Assembly: GCF_032854445.1 (NCBI RefSeq)
Contig: NC_088303.1
Coordinates: 12,593,501-12,657,500, forward strand
Direction: 5' to 3'
Source: Liolophura sinensis
Lineage: Eukaryota > Mollusca > Polyplacophora > Chitonida > Chitonidae
Length of the DNA: 64,000 bases
The notes under the pieces are model-generated. The model was not told the origin of the DNA. It searched no databases and saw only the letters and a list, made by a program, of their open reading frames with translations. The translations under genes were made by a program, and so were the position numbers. Positions 10,012-64,000 of this stretch are shown piece by piece (position 1 is the first letter of the stretch; every line of letters begins with the position of its first letter).

Positions 10012-10211
10012 NNNNNNNNNNNNNNNNNNNNNNNNNNNNNNNNNNNNNNNNNNNNNNNNNNNNNNNNNNNNNNNNNNNNNNNNNNNNNNNNNNNNNNNNN
10101 NNNNNNNNNNNNNNNNNNNNNNNNNNNNNNNNNNNNNNNNNNNNNNNNNNNNNNNNNNNNNNNNNNNNNNNNNNNNNNNNNNNNNNNNNNNNNNNNNNNN
10201 NNNNNNNNNNN
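10012..10211. other. Assembly gap (200 N)
   Basis: Exactly 200 undetermined bases, a conventional placeholder for a gap of unknown size. It interrupts the 63-bp array, so the true array is probably longer than shown. Confidence 0.99.
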
Positions 10212-29356: not shown

Positions 29357-29588
29357 TCACGATAAATCTGTCATCTCTATTGCCTCCTGCGAATTCACGG
29401 AGTTATCGAAGCATCCCTTCTGTCTCACGTCTTGCACAAATATCTCCGGCGCAGACTGGTACGCATCTTCCGGTACCACAGGCGAGTTCTCCTCTGTCAC
29501 TTCCTGCAAGCTTGATTCTCTGTTCAAGCTGTGAAGACGCCGTAACTTTCCCGAGCGGCGCCGAGACGTGTCGAGAGTAGTTAGTCGA
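29357..29588 (-). CDS. Receptor exon 17: C-terminal exon and stop
   Basis: Acceptor ctgtgcttccttcag, phase 2; 232 nt to TGA at 29359-29357. Encodes TSRRRSGKLRRLHSLNRESS (a basic patch with possible R-x-x-S kinase sites), an acidic middle, and ends NSQEAIEMTDLS. No canonical PDZ-binding C-terminus. Confidence 0.82.
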
Positions 29589-32500
29589 CTGAAGGAAGCA
29601 CAGAGGAAGACGTACAGTTCAAGAATTATCCATCATATTTCATGTATATCAAAGAATACTAACATTATAAATGGGGATAAAAAACAAACTTTTACGTGAT
29701 GAAGTTTTTGTATCCTCGCACTGCTTTTTGTCCAGCAATGCTAACTGTAGAGTGGACGGTGTGACAACACTCGTACCAAAAATAAATATGGGTATTCATG
29801 CGTTGAGATAAGCTCAATAATATTTATTTATTTATTTGATTGCTGTTTTACGTCGTACTCAAGAATATTTGACTTATACGACGCCAGCCAGCATTTTGGA
29901 TGGGGGAAAACCACGACCATCCCCAGGTTGCTGGCAGACCTTCCCACGTACGGCCGAAGAAGAATCCAGCATGAGCCGGACTTGAACTCACAGCGACCGC
30001 ATTGGTGAGAGGCATTCTGGATCAACTGAACCACGGAGGAGGCCAGTCATATAAACGTTAGATTTTGTATCCTACTGTAATACATTGTTACTCACGGTAG
30101 GACTGTATACTGCAAATGCAAGTGGCTTCACACCCAAACAATTCATTTATCTACTTTAATATTGCATTATTGAGCTTTTTAATCTGCCGTGTTAGGAGAA
30201 CATCAAAAGAAGACACATGGCAATATTCTTACCTTAAAGGGAGACAACCTTTTAAGTCGTCATCTGACACCAATCCATCTTCTTCACCGGAAGTATGAAT
30301 GCGGCCGTTGCGCAGTTTTTTGTTCTCCTGTGATATACGTTGTAATTGGATCAATTTAAGCGCAGCTTGCTGCAGTTGTGATGTCACTCTTCTCTCGTCA
30401 GGTCTGTGGAAACCCCAAAGCAAAAAGAAATCTAGATATTGAGAATTATCATGAATTAGTTCGTGAAGCTCTGTATTGGATGAAATTATATAACACGTTT
30501 CCACAAAATGAAAACTGCCTTCTTGTCAGCCGGCAGTACTGTCCACTGACCAGAGAAATTCATTTAATTAGGTCAAGGTCAGTCCTTGATCTGTTACAGA
30601 CAGCAGAGAAATTCCATGTGAGATTGCGAAAAATCCGTCCATGGTATAAGAAATAAATGGGATCTGAAAACCCTGATTTGGGAGTTCGAAGATATTTCCT
30701 ATATTGAAATAGTGTAATATAAAATTCTTACCGCACTGCGACGCCCTGTATATAACGTATTTATTTATTTGATTGATGTTAAATGCCATACACTGGCGAA
30801 TTTTCCAGCCATACGATGGCGGTCAGTTCTACACGGCGAGGAAACCGCATTCCCTGGGGTTTGGCGAGTTACTGTAGATATTATCCCGAATACAGGGAGG
30901 CCTGTCTGTTTGACACTCCGGTAAAAATCAAATATACTGTTCATCAAAAGAAGTAGGTATTGCATATAAACAATATAAAAAAAATATAAGCATTCAGATG
31001 ATCCAGGCCCCCCTTCAACAAGGCATTCTTTCCTGAAGGGGATGTAAAAGCATATTAGATAATGTTCATCCAAAACACAGAGATATCTGATAAGGAAACA
31101 ACATACGGAGTTTTAGTAATGATTTAGTCGTGATTTAACCAATCAGATATATGGAAACTGATTAACGAGTGTGATTGCAAATTTCCAAATGCGCCTAACC
31201 TAACGTGCATGTACGCGTATAATGCAAAATGCCTGCGCGGTATTGGTATGTTTTGTCGAATATAATATGACACGATATGAAGAGTCTAACTGTGTTCCAC
31301 ATTCATTCACATTTTTTGCTGTTGGATTGTTGGAGAAACACATGTACAAAAACATGATCTGAAACATCGCCTACACTATGTAACTGTACACAACTGTATC
31401 CAGGTGTGTCCTATAATTCTCTTACAAACCATAATTTTTACCATTTAATGCAAACGTTTAGGAAATCAAAGCTGAAGCATAGAATATCTTTTCCGCAGGT
31501 GAATTCATGTGGAAACATGAGGAGTTCTGGATTTGTTTCCGATGCCAAATGATCCTAGGCGAACCCATAGGGTGTTCACCATAGACAGCTATTCTGTAAA
31601 GATATTACCGTATTTTTAAATACAGTTAAATGTATGTAAATATCTGGATTCTAAGGCGGGCCTTTTTGATTCATAAAAAGAAGTTTAGTTCACTGTCATA
31701 CTGACCGCCGATGATTTGTTTTCTGCATTTCTTTAAAACATATATTTACGGTAAAATTAAATGATGTATTTTTACACTAAAATTTATACACATCTCTCTT
31801 CTGACTGTAAATTGAAAGCCCATTCTGTAGTAACATAAGCAAGACGCTGTAAAAGTACAAAAATACCACACGTTTCTTTTGCAGTCAGATTGCTGTAAAG
31901 GTACAGACGCCAATCAATCAAACACCAGTATGTTGTAAACTTACAGCTAAATGAGACACCTTCAGGTACTTGTATTTGTTCATATAGTTCATATATTTGT
32001 TATTTATTTGTTTGATTAGTGTTTTTTACGCCGTAGTCAAGAATATTTCACTTATACGGCGGCGGTGTGTGTGTGTGTTGGGGGGGGGGGGACCGCATAT
32101 TTTTGTAGATCTACACCGTTTGTCTTAGTAAAGTATTTACAAAACTGAAAGTATTATTAGACACAGTTTCAAAGTCTATCTAGTAATAGCTACTTCCATT
32201 TTTGTTTTTTTTTGTTGTCGTCAACCAATGGGTAATCAAAACCCGAGTAAACCCGGTACCTGACAATTCTCTTGACTTGTATCCGAAGCCAAACCGGCAA
32301 AATCTGGATTCAAACTTGCTTTTGCCAAATGAGCAAGTGCTTCCACTCAGTGACGACTATTGTCATTCGGTGACTTACCTAACAGTTGGCCAGGACGAAA
32401 ACGGCTTTTCGTAACGGTCAGGTCCATAACTTAACTCCGGGCTAGGGGCCGAGGAAGTTGTTTTGGAATTTGATTTGTCCGTTGAGTTTTCCTTAGTTTG

Positions 32501-35500
32501 GTAAGCTGAATCTTTGAATTTTTTGTTTGAGGAAGGGATAACAGAGTGGAAAACCCTGGGTTCAGGAGTTGGCTGAGGGGCTGACGGTTCTGTGGGGAAC
32601 CTCAGGGGTGATGAATGGGCACTCTTGGGTGCGGAGGAGATGGCAGAGTCTGTTAGTGTGACTGCCAGGAACTGAGTTCGATCCTCTGGATTACAGTCCC
32701 CTGAGTACTCCTCCTCGCTCGATGACAGTACAGTGATTTTCACATCCGGCGTCTTCAGCCCATTTCTTTCTATGATATCATAGTTTTTGGAAATGACCGC
32801 AATGTCGGTGTGTTGCCTTTCCGACGGATCGGGCACTTTTGACAGCAAACTGTCGTTACTTTCGTAGTTAGACAAAGTTTCAAATGAGTTTACTTCGTTT
32901 ATATGTGTAGTCACAGGCACAGTAAGCACCAAGTCACTCGATGAACGGGATTTTCTATTATCTCGAGCCATTTCGTTTTTGTAGTTGTGACCGACTCCAT
33001 TACATAATAGATCATCTGTATCATGACTCTTTGCCCTTCTCAGTGATCGGCGTGGCGGTCTTTTGTAATCCTTTTCGCTGTTGCTTGAATCACACTTTTC
33101 CACCGTTTCATGTCGGCGTAATGTCCGCCGCCCAGAATGTTTACCTTCTCCATAAAGTTTCTGTCTTCCGGAACGTCGATCACTTTCCGCGCTTGATGTC
33201 GTTTCCACAGGATATGACATCACGTCCGAATGGCTTCCGGTCATCCTGTGACGGCCATGACGGGACCGTCCAGAGCTTTTGTGGTGGTGACGTCGGTCAT
33301 ATTTGATGCATTTTCTACACTGACATGTTCGTTGTTTTCTGCAGGACGAATGGCAGGACTCGTATGAGGACTGATGGCCTAATCCCGAATCCGAGTACGT
33401 GGTCACGTCATAACTTCCGGTGTTCCAGGCTTCTCGGCGTGCGCGGGAGACAGCTCTGAATTCCGACTCTGTAGAACTGCTGTGGTCCCAGAGACACCAT
33501 CGTGGATGACGGCACTGCTTCTCAGTGTTGTACATAGCATTGGCGCTATGGGATTTCAGCGCAAAGTCTCGACGCCTTTCCTTGGCGCCATATTCCAGAT
33601 AATAACTGGCCGACTGAACGATGGGATCTGTCGGTATACTCAACGAATGCATTTCTCCCATCAGGTTAGTACCTTTCTGGGCTTTTTCATCTACAATTTG
33701 GTCAGCAGAAGCCACAAGACCGTCATCGGTCGTGGATTCTACGTCAAGATCATTATTTATTATGATATGTGGATAGAAGTGATGTCCCACCCCCTCTAAG
33801 GATTTTGGCCTAGGCAGAACACTGGCGTTACCACCGTGACGATGTATCAGCGGCGTGGAACTGTAACTTCTGTTTAACCTGGAGATCGGCTCACGAGTCT
33901 CGCTCGGACGAAGTTTAAGGACGGCTAGAGGATTCTCTGCGTTTGCCTCCGTGTTGATCTGATCAGTGTTAAGAACAAAGGAGCCGGCAACACTGGATTC
34001 CATTGTGTTCGTTGTATCCTTCACTTCGGGATATCTGGACGTAATACCCCGGGCTCTTTCTGAGGAGAAACGGCTGTCCTGAGTAGGATTTTCGTACACG
34101 ATCCCAAGCACACCCTCCTTTGTAGGTTCATCGCTGTACGAGGCCAGCCTCTCATCGGATACCTAGAAAACGTAAGAGTTACGCTCTCTAAGAGGTCAGT
34201 CAGGAAGTTATTCTCTTTTACAGGACAGGTATAATACTTTTTCTTTATTTTCATTATATAACGACTGGATACACTGATCTTGAACATATATCAACTTTTG
34301 AGGTACAGGCAAAACTGGTGATATGTTAACGCTAGGATATCACAGAAGAAGTGTAAATATCATAAATGTATCATAAATGTATCATATCATACACTTGGAA
34401 TATTTATGCCATTCATATGAGACTGTGCAATTTTCTCTGTGTACTGACAAGGTATTCCGAATCACGAGACACGTTTGATCTTCTTGTGCTTTCATCGAAT
34501 TTCAGATCTGTTCTAATCAAAGTCTCCGGCTACTCTTGATCTGATTTATCTCAAATTTCAAATGCATGTTCAGATTAAAGAAAACTCGTGCAGCAAGGAT
34601 TTGACTACGCACGAACGCCAATATACTGAGTGGAAACAAAATGGCTGCATACCTCTTCGATGTGAATTTCTGGCTGTCGCCGGAAGTCAAGCGGGCTTTG
34701 TTCTCTGGACAGATAGCTGTTGTAAGTTGGCAAAGATGTCGACGGGATTCCATGGTCTAGCCGCCCTGAAAGCATACAGGTACTCTGCTTTAATCTAAAA
34801 CTGAAACAAGGCACATTTGCTGCGGGATGGGAATCAGCACCCTGTTAGCACTTCAGTCTGTAAAAGGGATACTAGTCTTTTCTTAAACCCTATCCACTAA
34901 AAGAGTGCCTATGAGCATTTCTGTATCAATTTGGAGTAATGTGTTTACTTTGGGGTTGATCAAAGCGGACTTTCCTGGAATTTCGAAAATCCTCTTTCAT
35001 ACCCCCTCCCCCCAACTTCCTGCAACACTGTACGTCAAAATTTTCACAAAATTGCAATAAGACATGTCCTACACTTTGAAAGTTTATAGTCAAATAAATT
35101 ACCTATCTTTTGATGAAAGTTTTGACACATTTGGACTTTTAGCTTTCTCTTTAACACCATTCTAAACAAGTCTTCTTAAAATCCATATTTTTCTAAATGT
35201 TTGTTATTGGAAAATGTAAAATATTTTATCATTGGAATTTTCATTTGGCTCACAGTTAAACATCCTGGCTTTCCAAAACAATTAACCTGATTGATATATT
35301 TTGAAGGGTGTGTGCGCTACAAAGCTTTGGAGTTTACCATTGACAGTTAGCAGAAGCAGATAAGCAGACATATTTCCAAGATGGGGTACTCCAAGTTAAA
35401 TTTCTCCTGCTCAAAAGTTTTGGCATGTATCAAGCCCTAACTTTGCGTGTGAAGTATGAGTGCAAAAATTACCGATTTTGACAAATGTTGGTGTGTGTGA

Positions 35501-38500
35501 TAGGAATCGGTCCCCTATTAGCACTTATGCGTTTTAATCATAAACGTTTGAAATTCTGGACGAGAGGACATCACGAGAGAGGTGATGATGAGTCTGTGAG
35601 TGACGCCTCCTTGGAGTTGCTAGGCACCCCTCCCAGCACATGGCAGAGTTACAGCACTAAATATTAACACTGTCGCTTATGGAAAATTAATAGCCGTCTG
35701 AGGCCAGACAAGTTTGTGAGGATATATGATGGCGTGATTGATCAATCACGTGACTCGAGATATCCCGCGAGACTTCCATTAAAATACATTCTTTTCTAAA
35801 TCTGTACCCTTTACCTGAGGGCAAAATAGCATACACACGTTGGTTTCCGTGCACTTCGGAGTTGCTAGCTTGTGATCATCTACACGACATCCGGCCAACC
35901 CAAATACCGTTTCGTTGTTTATACCTCTTGGATCATTTAACCTGTGCTCAGGTTTGCGTATGCTGGAGAACGACGAACAATCTGTCTTTCAGATAAGGTT
36001 TTCACCTGCGACTTTCAAAGCCTTCGGAATATGTAAATGTAGCTCACCATTTTGCTCCTGTTGTTTCTTCTTAGTCTTGTTCTGACAACAGCAGTTCTCC
36101 AGGCGCCCTGAGCACTTCCGCTTCACGCAAAACATTATGACAAAGATGAGAACAAGGGAGAGAATGACGATTAGACCGATCCATATCGGCTCCTCCAACA
36201 AACGCTGACTGGCCGTGCGTGGGGTCAGCATAGGGAGGCCGCTACGGCTAGAGCACTGGGCACCTGTAGAAGAATAGGCAGGGTCTGGTTGAGTGACTGA
36301 TACATGGATATATTAAACCAGTCCAGTCGCTAACTGAAGAGGAATTGGAGCTGGGGGCGGGTGGGGGGTGCGCTGTAGGAGAAGCTGCACAGGGGTACAC
36401 ATAAGATGGTTAGGTGACTGACACACTAGATATTTTCTCACAACAAAAGGGACTAAATAACGGACAATCTAGTTATTTATCTCAAATATCCCAGTTACTT
36501 AGAGAAAACCTTATTTTTTACTAATTGTAAGGATTTTTATTGGTGATATGAGTAATGATTACGTGAATGAAAGTTTGCTATGAAAACTGGAATAGGATAA
36601 GTTGTACTCTACCGTGTTGTCTTTCGAAGAAAATCCAAATGTCTATTACCAATAAGCCTTAAGGCCATCATCTCAGTGAAACCGTCGTATATGACACAAA
36701 AAATGAAATAAATCAAACAAATAAATTCTAGGCGTATAAAGTTTGATAAGATAACGCTTACCAGAATACCCCAAATCACACTCGCAAACAACGTTGTGCT
36801 CGTTTTCCCGCCAGCACGCTCCGTGATTGCCACACAGTTTCGTTCGACAGGTGTCGCTGTCAAGTTCACAGTAGATGCCGAAGTATCCTGGCTCACAGAC
36901 ACAGGTGTAGTAGGTGCTGGTCAGATTGCAGGTGCCTCGAACACAATTGTCCACCTCACACCACGTGGCATGGCATAACAACCCTGAGCAATAAGGACGG
37001 ACAACTATTAACACACGATAGGAAATTGTAACAGTGTATTTATCATTACCATGGTCATATGGTAAATATTACACATTATTGAATAATATTACTTTGTACC
37101 GATAACAACCTGATAGGTTGTCACTGGCTTCACGGATTTGTTTTTTTACATGCCTCGATTTTTAATTATCAGTGAAACGATTAAAAGAGTACAAAAATTA
37201 GCGGAGCCAACATAAGCTAATTTTTAATTTATTACATGTACTTTAACATATACATAACAACCTTGTTGACTTGCTTGGACTCGAACACGTGACTTCATTA
37301 GGTCACATTAACTGAACTGCGATGCTCATGTTCAGTGAGCTACTGAAAAGTGTCTGGCATAAATCATGTTTACAGAAGATAGTACGGTACGAATATCTAT
37401 AACAGCTGAAAATATCTGCTTTCGTAAATATGAAAAATTTTATGTATTTCAAACAGAGGAAACTTAAATCTTTGGGAACATAATTTTTTGGTATTTCTTT
37501 TGAAGTTTATGTGAACTCAAAATGTGTATGCAGCAAACATTGATTGCACAGTCAGCATCACTCTCATTGTCAGATGATCATATCAGCATGTAACCATGAG
37601 GTCAGCATATATTAGTTCATTCAAAGTGTTCCCCGACATCTCTAACCTGAGTAGCAGTTCGTTGCTTTAACTAAAAATTACGGCCAAAGACATTTTAAAA
37701 CAGTAAGGAAACTGCACATCGCGCATGCGCAAAATTTAATACATGCAGAGACACATATGTATATATAAGTTTGGATGGCGACCTCATCCCATAGAATGTT
37801 TTGCGCTAAGTCAATAAGGTGTTTCATGGATTCAGGATATCCTTATCTTGTGAAAGATTTCTGGAAGGGGTTTCGTACGCAAATGAAAGATGATCCTCAC
37901 AAACAACGCCATGTTGCCTTGCAGTCATTCCAAAACGATAGATGCAGAAATCCGACTAGTTGATAACTGATGTAATTGAACTAAAACGTCACGTCTTTTT
38001 AATGCGAGATTTTCATTACCATCGTGTTTTGGACGAGAAGACAGTTTTATGTGATCTATTAAGGCCCTACGCTGAAGGAACAGCTTGAAAACAACGGACT
38101 GATCCTCAGGCTGGCAAGTTCGTTGGATATATAGTGTAACATTATTTCGTCCATGGGCCTGGTGATGGGTAAAATGTGTTCTTCATCTTTTGCTGGCTCA
38201 GCCAAGTTGATTGCCTTTAATTAAAATTATATTGATTGAAAACTGCCGCCACAGACCAGAACTGCAAAGGAACTCGGGGGAAAAACCACCGGATGTTCGG
38301 CTGAAGAGATAAGAGTAATCTACATTACCTGTGTAATATCCGGGACACTTGCACTGGAAGCCACCTGCCGGAGAAGTATTGCAGGTACCCCCGTTATAGC
38401 ATGAGTAGGGTCCGTCAAGACAGGCAGGAAATGTCAAGTCAGTCACGTTCTTTGTCTTGTTGAAAAACTCTGGGTCTAAAAATGGAATATAAAATTGGAG

Positions 38501-50500: not shown

Positions 50501-53500
50501 GTGACTATCCCCAAAAAATTCTCTTCAGGAGTGTTTTTTCCACCCTTATAAAAATTTTCACTCTTACCTATCACTAGTAGTTTCCATTTTGACCAAATCT
50601 GAAATAGTTTCCACTCTGATTATATCAGTAACAGTTTCCACTTTGACGATATCAAAAATAGCTTCCACTTAACCAGGTTTGTAACAGTTTCGACTTGGAT
50701 CATATTAGTAACACTTTCCATTTTGACAATATTAGTAACTGTTTCCACTTTGACCATATTAGTAATAGTTTCCACTTTATTAGTAACAGTTTCCACTTTG
50801 ATCACATTAGTCATAGTTTCCTCCTTGACCACATTAGTATTAGTTTTCTCCTTGACCACCTTAGTATTAGTTTTCACTTAAATCATATTAGCAATAATTT
50901 CCACTTTAATCATATCAATAACAGTTTCCATTTTGTCCATATTAGTAACAGTTTCCATTTCAATCATATTAGTAACAGTTCCATTTCAATTATGTCAGTA
51001 ACAGTTTCCATTGGACTATATCAGTAACAATTTCCATTTTGATCAGATTAGTAACAGTTTCCACTTTGATCATATTAGTAACATTTTCCACTTTGATCAG
51101 ACTGGAAACTTCACGTCCACCTGTATGACTTGGTGACGATCACTTACACGTATACATTTCCTGAATTTCCTAATGTATCTGCCACTGTGGGCTCTCTTGG
51201 CGAGGACAGGTCCAATTCCATTTCTTCACGACCTAGTCCTAATTGCTACAGGGCCTGATAACACGATGAGGAATCCGCTGGTCTCCGGTGTTTCCGCACA
51301 TTTCGTGCGCATTAGGAAGCTAGGGCGACACATAATCGTTACGCAGAACTATTTTCTACAGTTTTATTAGCATTCTGCGAAATGTTAGGAGTCACAGGTT
51401 TTGTTCAAAGCTGTTTGCCAGCCATGCAAGCGTTTACTTTTCTTGGACAGTCTTAGTTTCCAAGAAATCTATCGGAGAGGACGTATCAGTTTGCACTGAT
51501 CGCTCTTTTGTCAAGACCAAATCTAACAGCAAGTGTCTGTGTCTCCACGATCTGTGATTGTAGGTGTACATATCTCTATTTGCAAAATGGCCGCATCAGC
51601 TCTAAAATAACATATGTATGTAGACCATCCCATACTACCGCGGTCTTTAGACATACATGTGCATTCAACTATAACATAATTGTGAGTTCTGTATTAAGTA
51701 GCAAGAACTTATCACCACATTATATTTTGTAAAATAGTTTAAAAGTTATCTATCATGGCGATGAAATGCCTACAGAGTCTACGTCATGGAGACTCTCTGT
51801 AAGCGCTTTCATTCCATGCTTCGTCGCGACGATTAAAGCATTCATGCTGATAAGGACAGACGCTGTCGCTTTTCGTTTCTTCACGCCTCTATGTACCGGT
51901 ACTTAAGCTTAGTTAACACATGAACGCTGTCTGTAACGTTCATCTCTGGTTTGCTTTTTTCTTTAGAGACTAAATAAATGAAATATGAATTTTTAAAATT
52001 AGATGTAAGTAATGTTATTTACTCTTGTATTAAATATACCTCCACACTGCTATTAATCACACTGGCACTTAAGACCCATGTTCAGACACATCGCGGCATT
52101 TGGCTCTGGTACCTTCACTGACAGCAGTTCGACTCAAAGACCTATAAGAAACATCACATGTTTGATCCTTATACTTCAGAGTATTGTATGTGCCCATAAC
52201 TGCTGTTTTTATTAATAGTGAATATTTGTTCATTTACAAATCATGAATGTCAAGTCGTTCTAAAACTAAAATACTCCTGTACCCGAAATTTTGGCCAAAT
52301 CCACCAGCGCAATTTAAATCGGGCTTATTGCTACCAGTTTTGAATAGCTCAAATAATTACCGTTCACAAAAATCAGCCTTGTTTCTGCACGTGACACCGC
52401 TTAACACGGCAATAAACTTCCTAACATTTATATTTCGGGTGGCAATATAAACTTGTTCAAAGTTTTAAAGTCATTTTAATACTATATAGTGCAGTAGAGT
52501 AATAATATGTACAGGTACAGGCGTCTGATATATCTTTTCTACCCCCTGGATTTTCCTATTGAAGGTGTATCATTAATTTGAACATCTTCAGCATGTCTTC
52601 GGCAATACATAGGCGTCGTGTATCAGTCGTACTAAAGTCAGAAATGTGCACACATACAAACATACTACAGTCAGAAACCTTCGCGCATACAAAATTGCTG
52701 CGGTCAGACATCTGCACATATATAAATATACTACAGATACAAATCTGCACATACATAAATATACTACAGATACAAATCTGCACATACATAAATATACTAC
52801 AGTTAGAAATCTGCACACATACATAAATATACTACAATTAAAAATCTGTACACACACATACTACAGTCAGAAATTTGGACATATATAAACACACTACAGT
52901 CAGAAATTTGCACAGATATAGACATACTACAGTCAGAAATCTGCACACATACATAGTACAGTCAGAAATCTGCACATAGATAAATATACTACCGTCAGAA
53001 ATCTGCACACATACAAACATACTACAGTTAAAAATCTACACACGCATGAACATACTACAATTAGAAATCTGCACACATGCAATCTGCTACAATGAGAAAT
53101 TTGCACATATATAAACAGACTACAGTCAGAAATCTGCACACAGATAAACAAACTACAGTCAGAAATCTGCACATATATAAATACACCACAGTTATAAATC
53201 TGCACACATATAAACTTACTACATTCAAAATAAAATCTGCAACATTTTTTTCTGAGGCGTGGAGTAATAAATATAAAGCGTCATGTCCGACATCCATATA
53301 CCATTCGTAGCCATATTACGAATAAGGCATATTTAACACTAGAACTGTCTAACCACAGACCAAACTGTTCACGTGTAAGTTATAAGCGGACACGTACCTC
53401 TCCGGAAGCTGGCCTCGAATCCCTTGCCCCCATCTGCAGCGTCAGAGTGGAAGGTGAGGGTCATCTGGCCACTAGTGGACAAGTAGCTGAGGAGACCGTT

Positions 53501-56500
53501 ATCTTGGTTGTGCTCTGAGCACAGCTGCGTAACCACGCCCCCAAGATCCACGTCAAGTAATCTGAACAATTCCCAGTGCGAGACATATCCAGAAGTCTTA
53601 TCTCTAAATAAATTCTAAAACCATCCGGTGCTTTTATTGATATTACACAGTCCATGTTATCAAAGTAGGATAGAGGGTTGTTAAAGCTTTGGATGACACC
53701 TGGAAGGCGTCGCTTTCCCAGTTACATTTGGAGATGTTGTACCCAAGCCAACTGAGAGAGAAACCTCGTCCTCCAATCGAATAATCGCTCCGAAACTTAA
53801 TGGTCACGTGATTTCCTGAAGTCACGTAGTGTATATCACCAGATTCTCGGCCGCAAAACGTTTGACTTTTATTGCCTTCTTCCATTTGTAGAATGGTAAG
53901 AGAATCGTATAAACAGTGCTCTTGGTATTCAATATCCATAGAGGATATGTTAAGGGAAATTCGGTAAGTCTCTGGTAATGTTATATGTAAGATACTTTCC
54001 ACATTATTTTCGTAAGTTGTCCGGATATTTGGGTAAGCCGCCATTCTCCGCTTAATTCCTTGCTGCTCATTTCATCGCGCTTTTGGGTGGTATCTAAGAA
54101 AAAGAATAACACAAAAGGGATTTGATAACACAGGTTACATGTCAGGTGACATTCTTGTATTTCTGAACGATGAGTAACGGAAATGATTTGTCGCCAAGTT
54201 ACTCCATTGTCCTCGCCAGGGAGAGATACCAGGGTTCGCATTTATCAAGCAACTTAAGACTTATGCCATTAATTTCAAGTGCTTAAAAAAAGCCAAACTC
54301 TGAACAGGAAAGAACTCGAGGGCATTTGATCATGTTAAACAGAAACGCATATAGATTGATTGACCATTTGATGATGCTAAAAGAGGAATTGCCGGAAAAA
54401 CAGAAAATGCACTGTGTGAAGACAAATGATGGTGTCAAATTACACTCGACAGATCATTGCACGATTAGACATCTGTTGGTGGATAAAACAATGAAGATTA
54501 CATGGTGAGGACATCGGATGATGCCAGTGATTTGCTTAGGTGTCTAATGACGATAATCAAGGAAGAACAGACACAGCTCGTCACCAGACACAGAGGCGTT
54601 TGATGATTTCCAAAAGAACGGACGGAACTTAGGGTAGTTTGCTTTACCAGGTCTTCTTGGGTCAACAGGGCAAACAAACTAATACATGCAGAATTAACAC
54701 ATGACTGCATTTCTAGTGTTCATAAACATTCTGTTTTTGCTCCTCCTGCACGGAAGCAATGGAGAAAACATAAAACTGTATTGTACAATTTAGTCCTGTG
54801 AAACTCACCTCCAGAATGACGGCTGCAGATGAATCCAGTTTAGTAGAGCATGGTTTTGTCCCTTCACCAAAAGGGTTCCTGTGTGACTACCGAGAGACAA
54901 AGTAGAACACCGATCACCTGCTGGTAAACAAAATCAGTGTTTTAGGGATTCGGCTTAATCTCTGAAAGAAATAAACCAAGCAATGCTTGACTCAATCAAT
55001 CACATCGATCATTCACCATAAAAAATTCAAAATCTCTAGCGTGTATCCACTTATTTGCAAAAGGCTACATAATAAGGCCATAACAAATACTAGTGTTAAA
55101 TTCTGAAAATCATTTGCATACGGGAATGTAACCAGGTATGAAGAAGGTAATGTTCTATTATATAAGCGTTCTGTTGCACAAACCTGCGCCATTTCACCCC
55201 CTACAACTAGAGCAGCCATTTTCAAGAAAACAAATGCAATATACGCCTACCTTCAACTCCAGGCACCCATATTTTCCTTTCTCCTGTAGTTGCACTTGAC
55301 ACTGCAATGTGACATCTCACACATTTCATTTCACAGTAACGAATATTTAGTACCGGTAATATATTTACTATTGATAAGCCCTAGGCCTATAAGTCATTAT
55401 ATTATATTACATTACATTACATTACATTACATTACATTACATTACATTACATTACATTACATTACATTACATTACATTACATTACATTACATTACATTAC
55501 ATTATATTATATTATATTATATGTGTTTTGTAACATATATCTCACATTGAAAGGTGTTTACAAATATTCTCTAGGCTGGAAAGAGATAATAATTTTGACC
55601 TTACACTCGGTAAATGCTTGGCCCATATAAACTTTAGAATCTTTCAAGCCATTAAAGAACAAGAAAACACCAGGTTAAAACATATTTCAGCCAAAAACAG
55701 GTTATTCAAGCTTTCTAAAAAGTGTCATACTTTTTTTATTTTAATGAGGTTTCCCCGAGTAACATGTAGAATAAAATGACAATGCGGCCATCTTGACAAT
55801 TTTATCCAATCAAACACGTTGCTATCAGATTACACAACCTAAGCTGTGAAGTTACTCATTCACTCGATGAAGTGACATATCATAACACAGAACCACTGCA
55901 AAATACATTATCTTGAAATCGTTGACAACGATTTAGCTATGTGTAGCCGAAGGCCATTTCACAAAGAGTTGTGGGGCAGGCCTGTATCATTTACGGACCA
56001 CCACAGACGTAAAATCAGTTGATATACATTCAGCCGTGTAATATTCAACGAAGGTATCACAAATGATGTCAGACAGTAGCAAACATTCTAGGCCCAAACC
56101 ACATTCGTATTCCCAAACAGCCTACATTTTTTGTCGATGATGTTAGTGTTTAGTATGGAAACAGTACGCAGTTGCTAAATAACCAATGTCAGTGAAAAAT
56201 TCATTACGGACGTCGAAGGTTTATGGGAATGAGAAAACGGCATCTCAGCGGATAACGCCTAAAACTAATCAAATCTTATGTGCTTATTTTTTATATGATA
56301 TATGCTTTTCTCTGAACGTAACGTCACCTTTCTCTCGATAATGCAGACGAAGGTTCACTAAACTTTTACTGGGTTGAAAAAAATTTTAAAAAAATATTTA
56401 CTGCCGGTTTAAGATACTTTGGATGGCAGTCTTTCAGTGGACATAAACATTAGTCAGATGCTGTCCTTCACTTCAGTTAAAATGCTATCTTGACGATTGT

Positions 56501-59500
56501 TGTCTCCCTTCCGTACACAACTCTTCATGGTATATTTTGTTAATTTCTCTATTGAAATGTATATTTCATTAATTTCTACATTGAATTGCATATTTACATG
56601 TAAAGATATAAGATAGAATATGTTTAGAAATCACGAATTGTAAAAAGTATACAGGTACAAGTAGTTTTGATACAGTATGGTATATGTCAGTGACAGGATT
56701 CACACAGGGCGGACGTAAACTCTCTCTTTGGCAACTTGGATGAGGTGTTAACGAACTACTATCTCAAAATGGACAATAGGAAACATTTTTCCCAGCTAAG
56801 CCAATCTACGTTTACGCTGATCTCTGGCAAAACGTGCGTAGTGCATAAAACATACGTAATGTGCAAAACATGTGCAACGGGGAAACAATGTTTGGTGAGC
56901 ATGACGTCATCAAAAAGACAGAAATAAATACACTACGTGGGTTGGACCCAACATGTTTTAGAAAGGAAAGGTTTCCTCGTTGCATTTATTGAGTAGTAAT
57001 AAATGGCAGTGTCATATTGTCAACATGACTTGGGCCTTAATTCGACGATTGAGCAGGGACAATACAGTCCCTTGTCTAGCTATTTGTCCTTCAACTCAAC
57101 ATTTTATTGACCTCGAGATGAAAAAAAATAGCATGTTTTCTTTGCCGTCACGCAGAATCTATCGTTTGCATGATCGATGTAGTGCACCTGTCCATTCCCA
57201 GTATTTCTAGTTACGGAATATAACCATCACGTGAATTGCATTCAGATCTATTCTATGTAAAGCTATGGGAGAAGTAAGATGGTCTTTGTGGACCAAATCG
57301 CTCACGGAAGTTAGCCACAAAGATCTTCTCTGCGTCAGTGGTTGGTTCGGCAAGCACGGCGTCCATGTCCTGGCAGAGAGCAGTGGCCATGGAATGGTCC
57401 AGGAGCGTCGAGATGAATACAGCATAACAGTGGAGCCCAAAAGCAATCCAGGAGCCGTTCCCACATGTCCACGAGACTGGAAATAAATAAACGCAAATCA
57501 TATATCCCCGGGTCCTATATCCGTAGGTTGGGAGGGGGGAGGTGAGGCGGTAAGTTACCTACAGATGTTGGGACAATTTTGGCGGGTGGTAACACATTCG
57601 AGGTATCATGTATATGAGATTGAACAGCAGGATTTTAGTCGAACTACTTCTTATGAATGCTGAATATTTACACAGAATGGACATGAAGCTGGCTTACCCT
57701 CCACCAGCCTAATGTTGGCTGCGAAGCCACCCGCCACTACATTGTGGTCAGAGTGGAAAGTGATGGTTAGCTGATTAGACGCCGACAGGTGGCGCAGCAG
57801 CTTCAACCGCTTGTCGTAGTTACCGCAGAGTCGTTGAGTTGAGGAGTCAGTTGTCGACTTGGCAAAAGGGGATATACTTAGATAATCAAAAGTGCAACTG
57901 GAACAGAAACAATATGTAATCTCAGCCGATTAGTCTTTAATCTGGTACAATTACCAACTTTTGACTGAACCTGGAAGTAGAAAGTAGAGGGCAAAGTTTT
58001 GAATGACAATGTGAAGATGCCGAACATGTATGTCTACAATCTTCCTAACACGAGGCTGTGTATGTCTACTATTTGCCTTACATGAGACTGTGTATGTCTA
58101 CGATTTGCCTTACATGAGGCTGAATATGTCTATGATTTGCATTCCATAAGGCTGTTTGTCTATGTCTACGATTTGCCTTACATGAGACTGTGTATGTCTA
58201 TGATTTGCCTTACATGAGGCTGTGTATGTATGTCTACGATTTGCCTTACATGGGACTGTGTATGTATGTCTACGATTTGCCTTACATGAGGCTGTGTGTA
58301 TGTCTATGATTTGCCTTACATGAGGCTGTGTATGTATGTCTACGATTTGCCTTACATGGGACTGTGTATGTATGTCTACGATTTGCCTTACATGAGGCTG
58401 TGTGTATGTCTACGATTTGCCTTACATGGGGCTGTGTATGTATGTCTACGATTTGCCTTGCATGAGGCTGTGTGTGTATGTCTACGATTTGCCTTACCTG
58501 AGGCTGTGTGTGTATGTCATGTCTATGATTTGCCTTACATGGGAGTGTGTGTATGTCTACTATTTGCCTAACGTTCTGAAGAAGAACAGGTAGTTGTCTC
58601 CCATGGTAACTTTACAACACCACTTTGCATGGGTAAGATGAATGTGGTTTACGTTTATTTTTATGTGCATATTTAGTTGATTATTCACTTCTGACGGCTT
58701 TTTAGGTCATGACATGATTTCTTCTGATTCATGTTTATTAGGGGGAAAAACCGAATAGAGCGTCACGTTACCAGTCGCAGTCGTCACGATGCCAAAAAAG
58801 TGGGATTTAGTGACATTGCTTCAACTCAATACGGATTGACAGCATAACTGTGTGAGTACAAATCATCTAGTAAATTTGCCTTCAGCCACAGATAACTTAC
58901 CTGTCCGACTCTTCTATATCAAACGTATCAAATTCCACTTCGATGCGGTATCCTATTGGGGCGCGGATGCTGTAAATGCATTTCAGGAAATCTGAGTAGT
59001 TCGCCGGAAATCCTGGACTTGTTATTCTTCCGCCGGGTGATTGAGGAGATAGATCAATGGAATCATTGCATGCAGGTCGTTCCTGCGGTTTCGGGCGATC
59101 CACTGTAACAACAGCAACGTGAAAAACGTGCAAGTAGTGACAGCGAATGCAATCGTTTTGATAGGAGAATTACAAATTTGAGCAATGCTTGTAATATTGC
59201 CTATACGGTTTACTGTTACATTATTATCACCTGTATATCGTGTTAAGTGAGGAGAGAACAGATGCGACATTTTTGTGTCTGTCTATCGTGTAATCAGCGG
59301 GGCACATTCAGTTGAGTTACAATGTGTACAGTGATTTATTCTTTGTAGATTCTGGTTTCTAAATGTTAACGTTATCAGCACGCGCACCGAGTTCCCGCCA
59401 TGGCTTTTGTCTTTTATCTAAGGCTATGGTAAACTTCCGGCAGAAGAGCGTTCACACCACAAACAACCATCACGTGCAAAACCCAATACTTCAGATTGAT

Positions 59501-62500
59501 TTACTGATGGTATTTAAGGCGATGGAAAACCTGTTTTGTTATAGTCGTGGGCTTTTAAATGTACAAGCATTTTCAAATAGACAAACTGGTCCAATAGACA
59601 TGAAAAACAAACAAATAATTTTACTTATTTATTTGATTGTTGTTTTACGGTGAACATTAGAATATAAATACAAATATGTAATTAAGGAAAAGATTAAATT
59701 TTCAACCCAGCAAAGACCTTGGTGAAAGCTGAATGCGCGTAGAAGACACAGGGAAACAGGGGGAAATGAACAATAAAGGAAAAATGGTCTTTTGTACCTA
59801 AGTCATGAAATAAAGGTTACATAATGTGAAGGGTGAATATCATTAGGAAGGAACAGATTTTTAAAGAAAAAACTGCAGACAAGGAAAAATGTCACACGAT
59901 GGTATACAATGTGAACTGAAAACAACAGTTGACATTTTGTGTCACTCGTGTTTTGAAGAGTCAAAAGCCACTCTGTACAGGCGGAGGTAGGATTGCACAT
60001 ATGCCACATTACATGCACAATTATGCTATGTTTACGCAAAGCAATTAAGGCTGAGTAAATATTCTGTAGCATGAAAGCCGCAACAAAGCACATATTTCTA
60101 TTGGCTGTATATTCCATAACTAACGGTACGGAGAAAAGCTTTCTGTCACATCTGAAAAGGTTTATTCTCAGCTGGGTCATTCTGACTGACCAAAGGACAT
60201 AAACTGTCCGTAAAATGAAAACTACAAAGGTGGAATATTGGACATTTCGTCGGCCTGTAGTAACCAATCACACCGTGCTAAACAGGATACGTATCGGGTT
60301 TTTATACAGCAATCAAGCTATTTCAGTATAACCTGGCATGCAAAGAAGCGATAAAACCTGTGATATAGACTGACAGCCATGCGCTAGGAGACGGACACTG
60401 TTTGTAATTATGATATTGGTAAGCAGCGAAGTGTGGTCGTCGTCATCTACAGAGTGGTGCTTACAACAGCGTTGTACAGGAACCAGTTATGAAGAGATCT
60501 AAGAGCTGGCCGTACGAGGATCAGCGAGGCACACAGCGATCACAAGATACTGGCCTCTACTGCTCAGATAATAATCCACCTTATGGAAAAATCAAAGTCG
60601 ATTCTTATCACGTTAGGTACAGATTCGTGAGATTTGGTTCTCCTCAACACTATAAATTACACACTCCGGGGATGTATTTTTATTTTTGACAGAGGCGTTA
60701 CTATTTGTAACGTTTGGAACACTGTGTAGAGCGTACTACCCACTAACATGGTGTTGCAAACTAGACATTGACATGGCTAATAGGCTGAAACAAACATGCA
60801 ACTTCCGGTTTAATGCAGGGCGCCGTGTTGAAAGCATGATGGCAAAATATGAAGTGTCACACGACACTAGACAGGCGACAAGTTATTATTACTCTTCTCA
60901 ACTTGTTCTTTAAATGCTTTGTAACCAATCCTTCTTTGCAGGTGTCGCCATGTGTGAATTATAACACACAGATGTCAGTTTACCTGGTAGTTTCTAAACA
61001 TAAATTGTCGCTATATAATAGATGGTAGAATAGGGCCTACATGCTTCCCACAAGATGTATATAAAGAAGATCACTGTCAAAGAGGCATATTAGCTTTTTA
61101 ACGCTTTAACTTACTGTTTCCGACAAAAAATTTATTTTCCTGAAATTTGCACACCACCTTAAGCTTTAGTCCTTTAGCAACAGTTCAGTTAACACAGCCC
61201 TGATTATTGAATTATCCACTAAACTGGCCACGATGTTCTCTTTCCTGATATACTGCCGCATGACTGAGTGAATGAGTGAATGAATGATTAAGGTTAAGCG
61301 CCACATTGTGTATCTCCATCTATGTATTTATTTGGTTGGCGTTTTACGCCGTACTCAAGAATATTTTACTTTCACGACGGCTGCAAGCATTGTCGTGAGA
61401 GGAAACTTAGGGTTACTTCAGCCTTATAAATATAGTTATTATAGGAATAAACGTTTTACTGATTTATTGGTTTAAATATTCAAAATGACATTTCATACTG
61501 CTAGGGCACAGTATTCCTTTCACTAGGGCACATATTTTTGTTAGGACATGCTATTTTTGCTACAGCACACTGTTTCCTATTGCTAGGGCACATGCAGTGT
61601 CTTAGCCAGGACACACGTGTTTTGTCTCGTGAGGTATAGGATTTTTTTTTTTTTTTTTTTTGATTGGTGTTTTACGCCGTACTCAAGAATATTTCACTTA
61701 TACGACGGCGGCCAGCATTATGGTGGGTGGAAACCGGACAGAGCCCGGAGGAAACCCACGACCATCCGCAGGTTGCTGCAGACCTTCTCACGTACGGCCG
61801 GAGAGGAAGCCAGCATGAGCTGGACTTGAACTCACAGCGACCGCATTGGTGAAAGACTCCTGGGTCATTACGCTGCGCTAGCGCTTTAACCGACTGAGCC
61901 ACGGAGGCCCCGTGAGGTATAGGACAATAGGCCACTAATAATCTTAACGTTACATGTAAATGGAATGGCGGCTACAATGATCTAAATGCCATCGTAGTTC
62001 CGTGCACGTAACGCATTGAAACCATCGCGCTTGGACAGATGAATTGTCAGACAGACGAGTTGTCACACAAATAATTGGTCAGACAGATGAGTGGTCAGAC
62101 TGACGAGTTGTCAAGCAGATGAGTGGTCAGACAGACGGGTTGTCAGACTGCTGTTAACAATCTTGTCTCAGTGTCTCCTTACCTTGACGTTTGTACATCT
62201 GACAGATGTAGCCGTTTTTCGCCTCACAGTTCCTGTCATTCCAGTAAAAATCTGTCACCTGCTTGTCTCCCTTCAACGGGAGCCGGAAGTTCCTGCGCAG
62301 CTCGACACAGTCCTCATTAGCATAACCATCATCACTCGGCTGTTTGACGTCATAATCATACTCAGGCCATCCCGGAAACCAGTCTAATCAAACAGAGTTG
62401 TGGAAATGCTTGAACGTTAATAAGGTACAAATAACGAACGCCATTCGGGTCCATGATTTCGGGACATGTACTGGTCCACCCCTTACGAAGCGAAAGCTCT

Positions 62501-63031
62501 GGTTTAATTAATATGATGTTGCATTTGTTTATTTCATTTATGTGAATGTTGTTTAGCGTGATTCAAATGGTCTTTATACTTATACAATGATGGCCAGTTT
62601 TAGCAGGAAACCGGAGTGCCTGGGATAAACCACAGGTCTCTGACAAGTTACTGACGAACTTATCCATGTGTGACGTACCACACCATATACAATCACGCGC
62701 AAAGGCCCCAGACTTGCAATCACAGTTTTCCACATTAAGTGTTAGATGTGATAGGGGTGTGGGTTAACATTATTCAGAAACGTACTGTTTCATGTTTTCA
62801 TTCTGCCGTAAGCAAAATGAGCTTTTGAAAACAGAAAACCTTTCAACATAGTAACGGGTATTTTTGGAAGAATACATTTGTGATTACTTTTCTGATTAAA
62901 TACTTTTCTCTATGCCAGATTTTGACTTACAATACGTCTCCACGCGAGTTCCATCCACCCAGTAAAAGTCGTTTTCAAACAGGCGGTCATTGGCTCCTAT
63001 CCAGTATGTTTGCGGGAAACTCTCGTTCGTC
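29357..63031 (-). CDS. Giant transmembrane receptor: CTLD-CUB-CTLD-like-CUB x3-EGF x3-TM-long tail (5' partial)
   Basis: One gene of at least 17 exons, assembled by hand on the minus strand: 63031-62931, 62383-62183, 59102-58901, 57897-57698, 57476-57306, 55301-55251, 54917-54809, 54655-54585 (weak), 54093-53398, 45199-44786, 38475-38329, 36983-36762, 36263-36006, 34765-34653, 34162-32379, 30403-30233 and 29588-29357. Splice phases match at all junctions, and three EGF domains become complete only after splicing, which argues strongly for a single gene. About 1,700 residues are encoded in the window; the signal peptide and the start of the first lectin domain lie beyond the right edge. Topology is type I: adhesive or binding ectodomain, one helix, and about 800 cytoplasmic residues. 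I know no named gene with this order. Role inferred: cell-surface recognition or adhesion with signalling. One exon has frameshifts (see its entry). Confidence 0.8.
29820..30043 (-). mobile_element. SINE copy, nearly full length, in the last receptor intron
   Basis: (ttta)n, gattgctgttttacgtcgta, gcatgagccggacttgaactcacagcgaccgcattgg and a decayed tRNA-like end aactgaaccacggagg. Confidence 0.9.
30233..30403 (-). CDS. Receptor exon 16: coiled-coil cytoplasmic segment
   Basis: Acceptor tttggggtttccacag, donor gtaaga, 171 nt, phase 2-2. Encodes VTSQLQQAALKLIQLQRISQ and ENKKLRNG, a strong short coiled coil, then an acidic SGEEDGLVSDDDLK. The phase fits both exon 15 and exon 17. The reading frame again hits TAA at the donor (AGG TAA). 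Confidence 0.8.
30404..32378. other. Receptor intron with SINE-like pieces
   Basis: Mostly unique. At about 30758-30880 there is a second, diverged SINE-like type (tatttatttgattgatgtta, ggaaaccgcattccctgggg, ggcgagttactg), also resembling 62521-62720. At 32000-32066 a truncated copy of the common SINE ends in a GT/G-run (32066-32091). The ORFs at 30378-30656 (plus) and 30568-31073 (minus) are not supported as genes. Confidence 0.6.
32379..34162 (-). CDS. Receptor exon 15: large cytoplasmic tail, 595 residues
   Basis: Acceptor cttacgttttctag, donor gtaagt. Long open frame of Ser/Arg/His-rich, low-complexity sequence that is probably disordered. It holds a membrane-proximal VYENP (a Y-x-N motif as bound by Grb2-type SH2 domains), a Cys/His-rich stretch (ESCHSSCRKQRTCQCRKC), repeated RHG / RHRR clusters, and an acidic SSSEEEYSGD resembling a CK2 site. 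No catalytic domain. The frame reads straight to TAA at 32375, but that stop is formed by the donor itself (AG|GTAAGT), so I take the exon to end at 32379. Confidence 0.88.
34166..36005. other. Receptor introns around exon 14
   Basis: Unique AT-rich intron sequence apart from exon 14. No repeat array or element recognised. Confidence 0.5.
34653..34765 (-). CDS. Receptor exon 14: juxtamembrane cytoplasmic segment
   Basis: Acceptor catacaggtactgtatgcttt-like tract ending cag, donor gtatgc, 113 nt, phase 1 in and 0 out, exactly what is needed to join exon 13 to exon 15. Encodes LDHGIPSTSLPTYNSYLSRE and RRQPEIHIEE. No domain recognised; two tyrosines are possible phosphorylation sites (speculative). 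Confidence 0.75.
36006..36263 (-). CDS. Receptor exon 13: transmembrane helix
   Basis: Acceptor tattcttctacag, donor gtgaaa, 258 nt, phase 1-1. After the last EGF cysteine and a short stalk, IWIGLIVILSLVLIFVIMF forms one transmembrane helix, followed by CVKRKCSG and a CCC group (possible palmitoylation) with a basic KTKKKQQ stretch. The basic side follows the helix, so the N-terminus is outside. Confidence 0.9.
36762..36983 (-). CDS. Receptor exon 12: EGF-like domains 2 and 3
   Basis: Acceptor ccttattgctcag, donor gtaagc, 222 nt, phase 1-1. After the last cysteine of EGF 1 come EGF 2 (WCEVDNCVRGTC, YTCVCEPGYFGIYC) and EGF 3 (DTCRTKLCGNHGAC, VVCECDLGYSG), whose final cysteine (AQC) lies on the membrane exon. 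There is no D-x-D/N...N calcium-binding consensus. Confidence 0.88.
36984..38328. other. Receptor intron, unique sequence
   Basis: No element or ORF that I can support; the plus-strand ORF at 37775-37963 has no features. Confidence 0.5.
38329..38475 (-). CDS. Receptor exon 11: EGF-like domain 1
   Basis: Acceptor ttccatttttag, donor gtaatg, 147 nt, phase 1-1. A linker with N-x-T sites (NKTKNVT) leads to CLDGPYSCYNGGTC and FQCKCPGYYTG. The sixth cysteine is supplied by the next exon (LLC), so the six-cysteine EGF pattern is complete only in the spliced product. Confidence 0.87.
39290..40330. repeat. 31-bp minisatellite organised as 62-bp dimers
   Basis: Two alternating monomers: gtaactcaaatcattacaaaaggtgatgtaga and gtaactcaaatcattgcagagaggatataga. 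The dimer period is 62 bp (for example agtaactcatatc at 39641 and 39703). Some dimer variants (gatgtggatatag) recur at longer spacing. Confidence 0.92.
40535..41400. repeat. 33-bp minisatellite, about 26 copies
   Basis: Monomer gaagagatccctgttagctc, then tgatcgttataat. Multiple-of-three length gives open 11-residue repeats on both strands (MKRSLLALIVI-like, hydrophobic); no start, splice or conservation evidence for translation. Confidence 0.92.
41401..44130. other. Receptor intron, unique sequence
   Basis: AT-rich intron. At 42905-42975 an A/CAA-rich low-complexity stretch. At about 41590-41830 three loosely similar phrases (catttacggataattnantc) hint at an old tandem repeat. No supported gene. 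Confidence 0.5.
44140..44356 (+). mobile_element. SINE copy in plus orientation
   Basis: Reverse of the other copies: agaatgacccaggaacccatcac, gccagcagccagtggtttct, caacataatgctggtcgccgtcgaataagtgatata, then gcgtaaaacaccaatcaaataaatgaat as the tail. It is diverged and lacks a clean head. It is the only clear copy in this orientation in the window. Confidence 0.8.
44786..45199 (-). CDS. Receptor exon 10: divergent CUB domain
   Basis: Acceptor tatcgttgtag, donor gtattt, 414 nt, phase 1-1. Encodes VLAASPNIDSVLDVTN, GWMIYLKIVHLS, EGCKDTYVEIADTAV, RFPLCVDTT and LHEVSLRFHTGD, then GHSATPGFSVLYKILP. The strand pattern and the late G-F-x-x-x-Y motif fit a CUB fold, but the usual first cysteine pair is absent, so only one disulphide is likely. 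A threonine/valine/proline-rich insert (TTVTTVTPPPVITSQSQ) sits inside. Confidence 0.8.
45440..45915. repeat. 25-bp minisatellite, two diverged blocks
   Basis: Block one (45440-45740): gttcacatattagaacaccaccata. Block two (45790-45915): agtttacataccagagcaccgatat. Same length and alignable, so they look like two homogenised versions of one array separated by about 50 bp. Confidence 0.87.
46320..46750. repeat. 37-bp minisatellite, about 11 copies
   Basis: Monomer cttctgttctgtaactaaag, then ctcggcatacacgatag. Unrelated in sequence to the other 37-bp array at 21880. Confidence 0.9.
46751..47160. other. Receptor intron spacer between arrays
   Basis: Three loosely similar phrases (tgctctatttattcgttaatttcagtaact) at about 46798, 46862 and 46930 suggest a decayed repeat of about 65 bp. 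Nothing else seen. Confidence 0.45.
47165..47750. repeat. 47-bp minisatellite, about 12 copies
   Basis: Monomer ggaacgataacaatggtcca, then aatgtcctctccaggaatggtattacg. Confidence 0.92.
48085..49535. repeat. 33-bp minisatellite, about 44 copies
   Basis: Monomer gatgacattcacgaatcatt, then ataaatctgactc. Open 11-residue repeats on both strands are a consequence of the 33-bp length; no sign of a gene. Confidence 0.94.
49536..50540. other. Receptor intron, unique sequence
   Basis: Unique sequence with short featureless ORFs (for example minus 50018-50254). No element recognised. Confidence 0.45.
50560..51110. repeat. 27-bp minisatellite, about 20 copies
   Basis: Monomer agtaacagtttccactttgatcatatt with variants (tagtttccacttt). 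Confidence 0.9.
51111..52620. other. Receptor intron, unique sequence
   Basis: AT-rich intron. No supported gene or element. Confidence 0.45.
52630..53225. repeat. 33-bp minisatellite, about 18 copies
   Basis: Monomer actacagtcagaaatctgca, then cacatacaaacat. It ends about 170 bp downstream (minus sense) of the double-CUB exon. Confidence 0.92.
53398..54093 (-). CDS. Receptor exon 9: two CUB domains on one exon, with three frameshifts
   Basis: Acceptor ttctttttcttag, donor gtacgt; length 696 nt (a multiple of three), phase 1 in and 1 out, matching both neighbours. The content is two CUB domains: one with AAYPNIRTTYENN, SSMDIEYQEHCLYDSLTI, TFCGRESGD and VTIKFRSDYSIGGRGFSL, the other with GVIQSFNNPLSYFDNMDC, IKAPDGFRIYLEIRLLD, CSDYL, LDVDLGG, MTLTFHSDAADGGKGFEASF. 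However, the frame must shift near 54047, 53710 and 53570. Each shift looks like one missing base (or two extra), and the three add to a full codon. Either the assembly has three one-base deletions here or this allele is broken. Confidence 0.72.
54585..57476 (-). CDS. Receptor exons 5-8: C-type-lectin-like segment, degenerate
   Basis: Exon 57476-57306 (acceptor tttatttccag, donor gtgagc) is a clear CTLD start: TCGNGSWIAFGLHCYAVFIS, then ALCQDMDAVLAEPTTDAEKI. The following small exons, 55301-55251 (with KIWVPGVE) and 54917-54809 (with DRCSTLSLGSHTGTLLVKG), keep phase but do not give a canonical lectin C-terminus. Exon 54655-54585 (FRPFFWKSSNASVS) has a poor GTGACG donor and is included because a piece of that phase is required. 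The second half could be a degenerate domain, or I may have misplaced one exon. Confidence 0.55.
55395..55525. repeat. (ATTAC)n microsatellite
   Basis: About 24 near-perfect pentamers bounded by ATTAT variants. It lies about 95 bp upstream of the acceptor of the small receptor exon at 55301-55251. On the sense strand it reads (GTAAT)n. Confidence 0.97.
55526..57305. other. Receptor intron, unique sequence
   Basis: No element recognised and no ORF that I can support. A missing piece of the second lectin-like domain might lie here. Confidence 0.4.
57698..59102 (-). CDS. Receptor exons 3-4: CUB domain 1
   Basis: Exon 59102-58901 (acceptor gctgttgttacag, donor gtaagt) carries ACNDSIDLS, GGRITSPGFPANYSDFLKC and the IRAPIGYRIEVEF strand. 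Exon 57897-57698 (acceptor tttctgttccag, donor gtaagc) continues in phase 2 with CTFDYLSIS, QRLCGNYDKRL, LTITFHSDHNVVAGGF and ends ANIRLVE. Four cysteines and the S-P-x-F-P...Y motif identify a complete CUB domain of about 110 residues. Confidence 0.9.
58020..58575. repeat. 36-40-bp minisatellite, about 14 copies
   Basis: Monomer tctacgatttgccttacatg, then aggctgtgtatgtatg; the length varies with the number of tatg units. Confidence 0.9.
59103..62182. other. Long receptor intron with SINEs and small repeats
   Basis: Unique sequence apart from SINE pieces at 59619-59660 and 61323-61420 (both minus, truncated), a full copy at 61645-61911, an approximately 30-bp tandem phrase ctagggcacatatttttg at 61495-61610, and gacagatgagtggtcagacagacgagttgt repeats at 62035-62150. 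The ORFs at 59803-60267 (minus) and 60489-60913 (plus) show no domain or splice support. Confidence 0.55.
61645..61911 (-). mobile_element. SINE, best full-length copy
   Basis: Read on the minus strand it starts with a tRNA-like head: ggggcctccgtggctcagtc, then ggttaaagcgctagcgcag (box A-like tggctcagtcgg). Next comes the box B-like gagttcaagtccagctcatg. A conserved body follows (ggcttcctctccggccgtac, aacctgcggatggtcgtggg, ccaccataatgctggccgcc, gtcgtataagtgaaatattc, ttgagtacggcgtaaaacac) and an A-rich end. About 265 bp. It is a polymerase III promoter type element, therefore a tRNA-derived SINE; the body resembles SINEs I know from molluscs. Confidence 0.92.
62183..63031 (-). CDS. Receptor exons 1-2: C-type lectin domain, middle and C-terminal parts
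   Basis: Exon 63031-62931 (acceptor ctcattccag, donor gtaagt) encodes YWIGANDRLFENDFYWVDG, the classic CTLD 'WIG' core. Exon 62383-62183 (acceptor gtttgattag, donor gtaagg) encodes DWFPGWPEYDY, then EDCVELR, then FYWNDRNCEAKNGYICQ, the typical closing 'C...W-N-D-x-x-C...Y-I-C'. The N-terminal third (the first Cys pair and 'CY') must be on an exon right of 63031, which I did not find before 64000. Calcium-site residues are not obvious (no EPN or QPD triplet), so sugar binding is uncertain. Confidence 0.85.
62521..62720 (-). mobile_element. Second, diverged SINE-like type
   Basis: Starts tttgtttatttcatttatgt, has acaatgatggccagttttagcaggaaaccggagtgcctggg and a right end aggccccagacttgcaatcacag. 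The aggaaaccg-agtgcctggg and caagttactg blocks are shared with 30758-30880 but not with the common SINE. Confidence 0.55.
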
Positions 63032-63745: not shown

Positions 63746-63749
63746 TGCA

Positions 63750-64000
63750 GGGCTATATTTGACAATCATGCCTCAAACAGTTTCCCTTACAATCATGGCT
63801 CACTCAGTTTCCGGTACAATCATGGCTCACACAGTTTCCCGTAAAATCATGACTCACGCAGTTTCCCGTACAAGCATGGCTCACTCAGTTTCCCGCACAA
63901 TCATGGCTAACACAGTTTCCCGTACAATGATGGTTCACACGGTTTCCCGTACAATGATGGCTTGCAGTTTCCCGTTCAATTACGCTCGCACAGTTATATT
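63750..64000. repeat. 27-bp minisatellite, runs off the right edge
   Basis: Monomer cagtttcccgtacaatcatg, then gctcaca; about nine copies. Confidence 0.9.

Follow-up and report, generated by a model that had tools for sequence, protein, structure and literature searches.

Several described proteins combine the module types encoded at the locus reported here. The nearest in domain content among the named proteins found in the literature is Uninflatable (Uif) of Drosophila, which, according to the available portion of PMC3340373, carries one CLECT, three CUB, 18 EGF, 8 CCP, 2 FA58C and 3 HYR domains. Like the predicted chiton protein, Uif is a large single-pass surface protein with CTLD, CUB and EGF modules; unlike it, Uif has the CCP, FA58C and HYR domains, which are absent from the chiton exons found, and 18 EGF repeats rather than three (PMC3340373, same portion). 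An Uninflatable orthologue would be expected to show those CCP, HYR and FA58C domains and all 18 EGF repeats; the exons found do not, although exons could be missed. The M02D8_5-like CUB families (PF23061, PF23062) show a likeness in that the first CUB of the chiton gene matches PF23062 at 5.1e-7, but its 30 bits fall under the curated cut-off of 32 bits, and the same domain scores higher, at 60.5 bits, with the generic CUB profile. A literature search on M02D8.5 found nothing. Attractin and MEGF8, both membrane proteins, have CUB together with EGF domains, attractin also a CTLD, and they are marked by Kelch and PSI domains. Pfam, in contrast, finds no Kelch or PSI domain in the chiton exons found, and these would be expected of a member of that group. 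Cubilin and other multi-CUB proteins share the arrays of CUB domains, and cubilin is the best PDB match (1.2e-30) of the CTLD1-CUB1 piece of the chiton gene; to our knowledge, cubilin has no TM helix and no CTLD. Novel combinations of CUB and CTLD domains are described in cnidarians in the available portion of PMC5119243. No receptor with the present domain order came up in the literature searches, as far as the portions of the sources they reached extend (including PMC3340373, PMC12867482 and PMC5119243).

The gene lies in the chiton Liolophura sinensis, to which the species name was changed in a later correction (PMC12441733). The window, meaning the whole stretch of 64,000 nucleotides that was analysed, is C9:12593501-12657500; exon coordinates below are window positions, except for three upstream exons (X1 to X3) given in C9 coordinates. 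The initial annotation had placed a large type I receptor with a long cytoplasmic tail at 29357..63031, and a multi-exon gene is indeed found there on the minus strand. The first exon inside the window starts at 63031, the stop codon ends at 29357, and the 5' part extends past the window edge. With an exon-chain scorer trained on seven ectodomain and TM stretches, the tail being held out, the minus strand of 27001-64000 scores 126.8 with 12 exons; the opposite strand scores 2.5, and 20 dinucleotide shuffles peak at 5.7. The minus strand of 1-27000 scores 28.5 with 7 exons under the same scorer; what is probably another gene can thus reach this level too. The automatic chain, of 12 exons, lacks E2 and E5, includes a 36-base piece of the CUB2-CUB3 block described below, and begins E10 from 45259. 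E2 and E5 were placed by hand (acceptor score 0.0 for E2, donor score -0.7 for E5). With them, E1-E5 and E10-E17 carry acceptor and donor sites and joining phases.

The likeliest reading from the sequence is a type I receptor for recognition whose tail would serve for docking. It is supported by the chain score (126.8, with 5.7 as the highest of 20 shuffles), by stop-free joins of 717 and 1,098 residues on the two sides of the block, and by the Pfam domains, the TM helix, the tail composition and the phases that allow E4 or E5 to join E10. On balance, we think it probable that this is one gene encoding a single-pass receptor. The order would be a signal peptide, three CUB domains, a CTLD, a fourth CUB, half of a second CTLD, an unreadable block of two further CUB domains, a CUB-like domain, three EGF repeats, the TM helix and a tail of 791 residues. 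The supposed receptor of lectin, CUB and EGF modules with a long tail lacking a recognised domain is thus borne out in kind. Its CTLD, CUB, EGF, TM and tail exons are well supported; the order first proposed fails in that the second CTLD is a half, the block is unreadable, CUB4 is no more than CUB-like and the upstream CUBs were omitted.

The window cuts the gene. Three more CUB domains and the opening half of CTLD1 lie upstream of it on the same strand, all in phase, so the order as first listed was not that of the full receptor. X1 (C9:12666644-12666517, minus strand) and X2 (C9:12666315-12666087, minus strand) together encode one CUB (Pfam 2.3e-16). X3 (C9:12665033-12664112, minus strand) encodes two CUBs (8.9e-39 together, in two stretches) followed by the CTLD1 first half, and it joins in phase to E1. 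A scan for signal-peptide exons of fitting phase gives six candidate rows from four start regions in the 29.5 kb upstream of X1 (one is at 12675603). At most one of the four regions can be right, so at least three are false; the signal exon presumably lies upstream of X1. None of the five control stretches contained a candidate.

CTLD1 continues in E1 (62931..63031, minus strand, as are all exons that follow), which holds its middle part (WIG...FYWVDG) and was placed by splice sites and frame, and ends in the hand-placed E2 (62183..62383; donor score 5.0), which carries the QPS and WND motifs. Joined from X3, E1 and E2, the domain passes the whole-domain profile cut-off for the C-type lectin domain (PF00059; 1.3e-17, 64.9 bits, profile positions 3-106 of 107) with a query short of two residues at the X3-E1 junction; E1 and E2 alone match Lectin_C at 1.4e-10. 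The motifs of calcium-dependent sugar-binding CTLDs are EPN or QPD together with WND. CTLD1 keeps WND and has QPS at the EPN/QPD position, and it may bind glycan. CUB1 is split between E3 (58901..59102), its first half, and E4 (57698..57897), its second half; E3 and E4 rest on splice sites and a joint Pfam match of 2.6e-21. The three upstream CUBs (a, b and c) and CUBs 1, 2 and 3 all score above the PF00431 cut-off, the queries for CUB2 (1.4e-15) and CUB3 (4.9e-12) carrying X at the breaks. The CUB array may bind proteins or glycans together with the CTLD. X1 to X3 and E1 to E5 join into 717 residues.

Two domains of the initial annotation did not hold up as proposed. Its second CTLD-like domain is present as a first half in the hand-placed E5 (57306..57476), which has a weak donor and matches the lectin-like family UL45 at 0.13, below cut-off. 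A candidate exon E6 (54809..54917), with good splice scores, looks by eye like a short piece of a CTLD first half and is uncertain. Pfam gave no Lectin_C match for E5 and no match of any kind for E6, and the second half of CTLD2 was not found on the minus strand of 53001-64000. The proposed CUB4 in E10 (44786..45199) gets no hit from Pfam at E 10 or below; when it is aligned with a profile built from five CUB domains of this genome, hhalign gives an E of 0.0053 with a probability of only 6.9. On its sequence, it is CUB-like at best. For E10 we prefer the start at 45199 to the alternative acceptor at 45259, which is in the same phase, with scores of 0.3 and 0.6 that are too close to decide. E11 (38329..38475) encodes a linker and EGF1, E12 (36762..36983) the end of EGF1, EGF2 and most of EGF3, and E13 (36048..36263) the end of EGF3, the transmembrane helix and a basic juxtamembrane stretch. 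The EGF repeats match Pfam at 7.6e-9, each has six cysteines when read from the sequence, and they may form a stalk. In a Pfam check of the proposed domains, CTLD1, CUB1 to CUB3 and the EGF repeats were matched, and CTLD2 and CUB4 were not. The exons bounded by phase 1 on both sides are E2, E5, E10, E11, E12 and E13; the symmetry claimed for most ectodomain exons from CUB2 to the membrane is therefore real from CUB4 to the membrane (E10-E13).

The TM helix in E13 has a mean hydropathy of 3.3 over 19 residues. The tail that follows it counts 791 residues, close to the 800 first estimated, and is encoded by the end of E13 and by E14 (34653..34765), E15 (32379..34162), E16 (30233..30403) and E17 (29357..29588), the last with the stop codon. 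E10 to E17 together give 1,098 residues plus the stop. E15, a tail exon of 1,784 bases and 594 residues with a Cys/His-rich patch, has no hit to a Pfam family at E 10 or below; the two final tail exons have chance-level Pfam matches only (0.22 and 0.82), and E16 has a helix-like stretch by eye. S, T, P, E, D, K, R, Q, N, G or H make up 72% of the tail. The Y-x-N motif first noted there is present, and occurs twice, but the shuffle mean is 1.33 (P 0.40). Being at the level of the shuffles, it says nothing. YxxPhi occurs three times (P 0.87 against shuffles), RxxS/T 20 times against a shuffle mean of 14.4 (P 0.053), and there is one Cys cluster (P 0.088). A scan for signalling motifs found one ITIM-like motif and no NPxY, class I PDZ end or ITAM in the tail; the last would mark an ITAM-bearing immune receptor. 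The mostly polar tail could act as a phosphorylated docking scaffold.

The CUB2-CUB3 block (53398..54093) encodes two CUB domains in one stretch and has no single readable frame. Its only good acceptor is at 54093, and in the CUB2 frame read from there a TGA follows the sixth codon, unless the frame changes at the block start. CUB2 and CUB3 need different frames, and there are two further frame changes, one between the two domains and one inside CUB3. The initial annotation had counted 17 exons with matching phases, which does not survive here: CUB2 and CUB3 form one block with two frame changes and the early TGA or frame change, and the count would fit the breaks having been taken as introns. 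Micro-introns or programmed frame shifting can be set aside, as the breaks are from a few to about two dozen bases wide with no intron-sized gap. So can a second copy or haplotig, the block having a single match in the genome, the window itself. The phases around the block allow two outcomes. E4 and E5 both join E10 in phase, so skipping the block would leave an intact receptor; for E5 to join E10, an intron some 12 kb long would have to enclose the block. The block is in phase with E6, and its good donor with E10, which suggests that the block was or is spliced in. In the receptor as we read it, the block would thus be either skipped or misassembled, and the two come out about even.

That the breaks are local assembly errors, the true exon being unbroken and the protein carrying six CUBs and a CUB-like one, falls a little short of an even chance in our estimate. 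This explanation concerns the block alone and is compatible with the receptor reading. The open pieces of the block still score as CUB domains, and the phase of E6 allows a join to it. Runs of five identical bases are the commonest site of error in HiFi reads, and one such run, of G at 53542, lies at or next to where the third break may be set; neither of the other two breaks coincides with a run of at least that length. According to the available portion of PMC11068029, HiFi coverage of the assembly was 14x and GenomeScope put the read error rate at 0.74%, so errors could sit where coverage is locally low. Against this, the other exons, about 5.4 kb, contain no breaks. If breaks were evenly spread, all three would fall in the 698-base block with a P of about 0.0015, a value computed after the breaks had been seen and one that locally reduced coverage would account for. 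CTLD2 is also incomplete beside the block, which favours a real lesion.

That there are two genes here, one for a secreted lectin-CUB protein that stops after CUB3 and another, CUB-like/EGF/TM, that begins near E10, seems improbable. The 8.2-kb gap and the unreadable block between the halves would suit it, and with the 45259 acceptor E10 would open with a hydrophobic stretch. The open frame of that stretch, however, has no preceding Met, and the good donor of the block fits E10 in phase. Candidates for a signal-peptide exon of fitting phase are absent from the 8.2 kb between the block and E10, as they are from the 6.3 kb between E10 and E11. The rate upstream of X1 predicts about 1.7 candidates per 8.2 kb, so their absence from the gap says little, and the scan argues only weakly against two genes. 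That the whole locus is a decaying pseudogene is less probable again: the unreadable block and the half CTLD would agree with decay, but the 16 other exons (X1-X3, E1-E5 and E10-E17) are open and in phase, including the 1,784-base tail exon. Least probable of all, at a slim chance, is that the gene makes two forms, a membrane receptor by skipping a CTLD2-CUB2-CUB3 cassette and, by splicing E6 to the block, an early-stop soluble CUB-CUB-CUB-CTLD-CUB decoy.

The rest of the genome was searched for copies and domains in the same assembly as the window (609,464,459 bases in 632 contigs). The tail and the TM region each have one match in the Liolophura sinensis assembly. Paralogues were considered and rejected, as the tail exon E15 matches the genome once only. 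The CUB4-EGF-TM piece has 53 matches, five of them in this gene; the 48 elsewhere all fall on the EGF part (query positions 154-275, with one extending to 309). Nine stretches were compared with the gene, eight at CUB hits elsewhere and one beside the window. CUB similarity was present in five (21-44% identity), and no CTLD, EGF or tail similarity was seen in the nine at E 1e-3. With 150 of 205 candidates scored, CUB matches in the genome number at least 133; with 150 of 376 scored, lectin matches number at least 120, this gene not being among them. Among the matches listed, three places were picked out by eye where CUB and lectin hits lie within 31 kb on the same strand: C1:27585512-27601513 (minus), C1:78530620-78561390 (plus) and C13:21589490-21619922 (plus).

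Other features of the window were recorded in passing. Three open frames lie on the minus strand, each with a match below cut-off: 4832-5254 weakly to the YqcI/YcgG family (5.7e-4), which is mostly bacterial; 6833-7177 weakly to FANCL_d3 (0.0074), in the stretch where the chain score of 28.5 suggests a gene; and 18357-18626 to PAC1 (2e-4), which may be chance because the frame looks repetitive. A 200-base run of N at 10012-10211 is presumably a scaffold gap. Tandem repeat arrays were seen by eye, in the sequence and its translations, at 1-1400, 9150-9700, 39300-40500, 40600-41400, 48000-49600, 52500-53300 and 58000-58600, and several of them sit in introns of the receptor gene. What we take to be a SINE-like family has two copies, at 61660-61900 and 29850-30060, ending by eye near ATATTCTTGAGTACG(G/A)CGTAAAA, and a diverged copy in the other orientation at 44190-44340.

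If the breaks are not assembly error, the unreadable cassette flanked by phase-1 junctions would represent module loss in progress. Molluscs have no antibodies, and recognition and adhesion in them draw on many lectin and CUB proteins. A receptor with an ectodomain of these modules and a long tail for docking would be a candidate for a link from recognition to signal in chitons.
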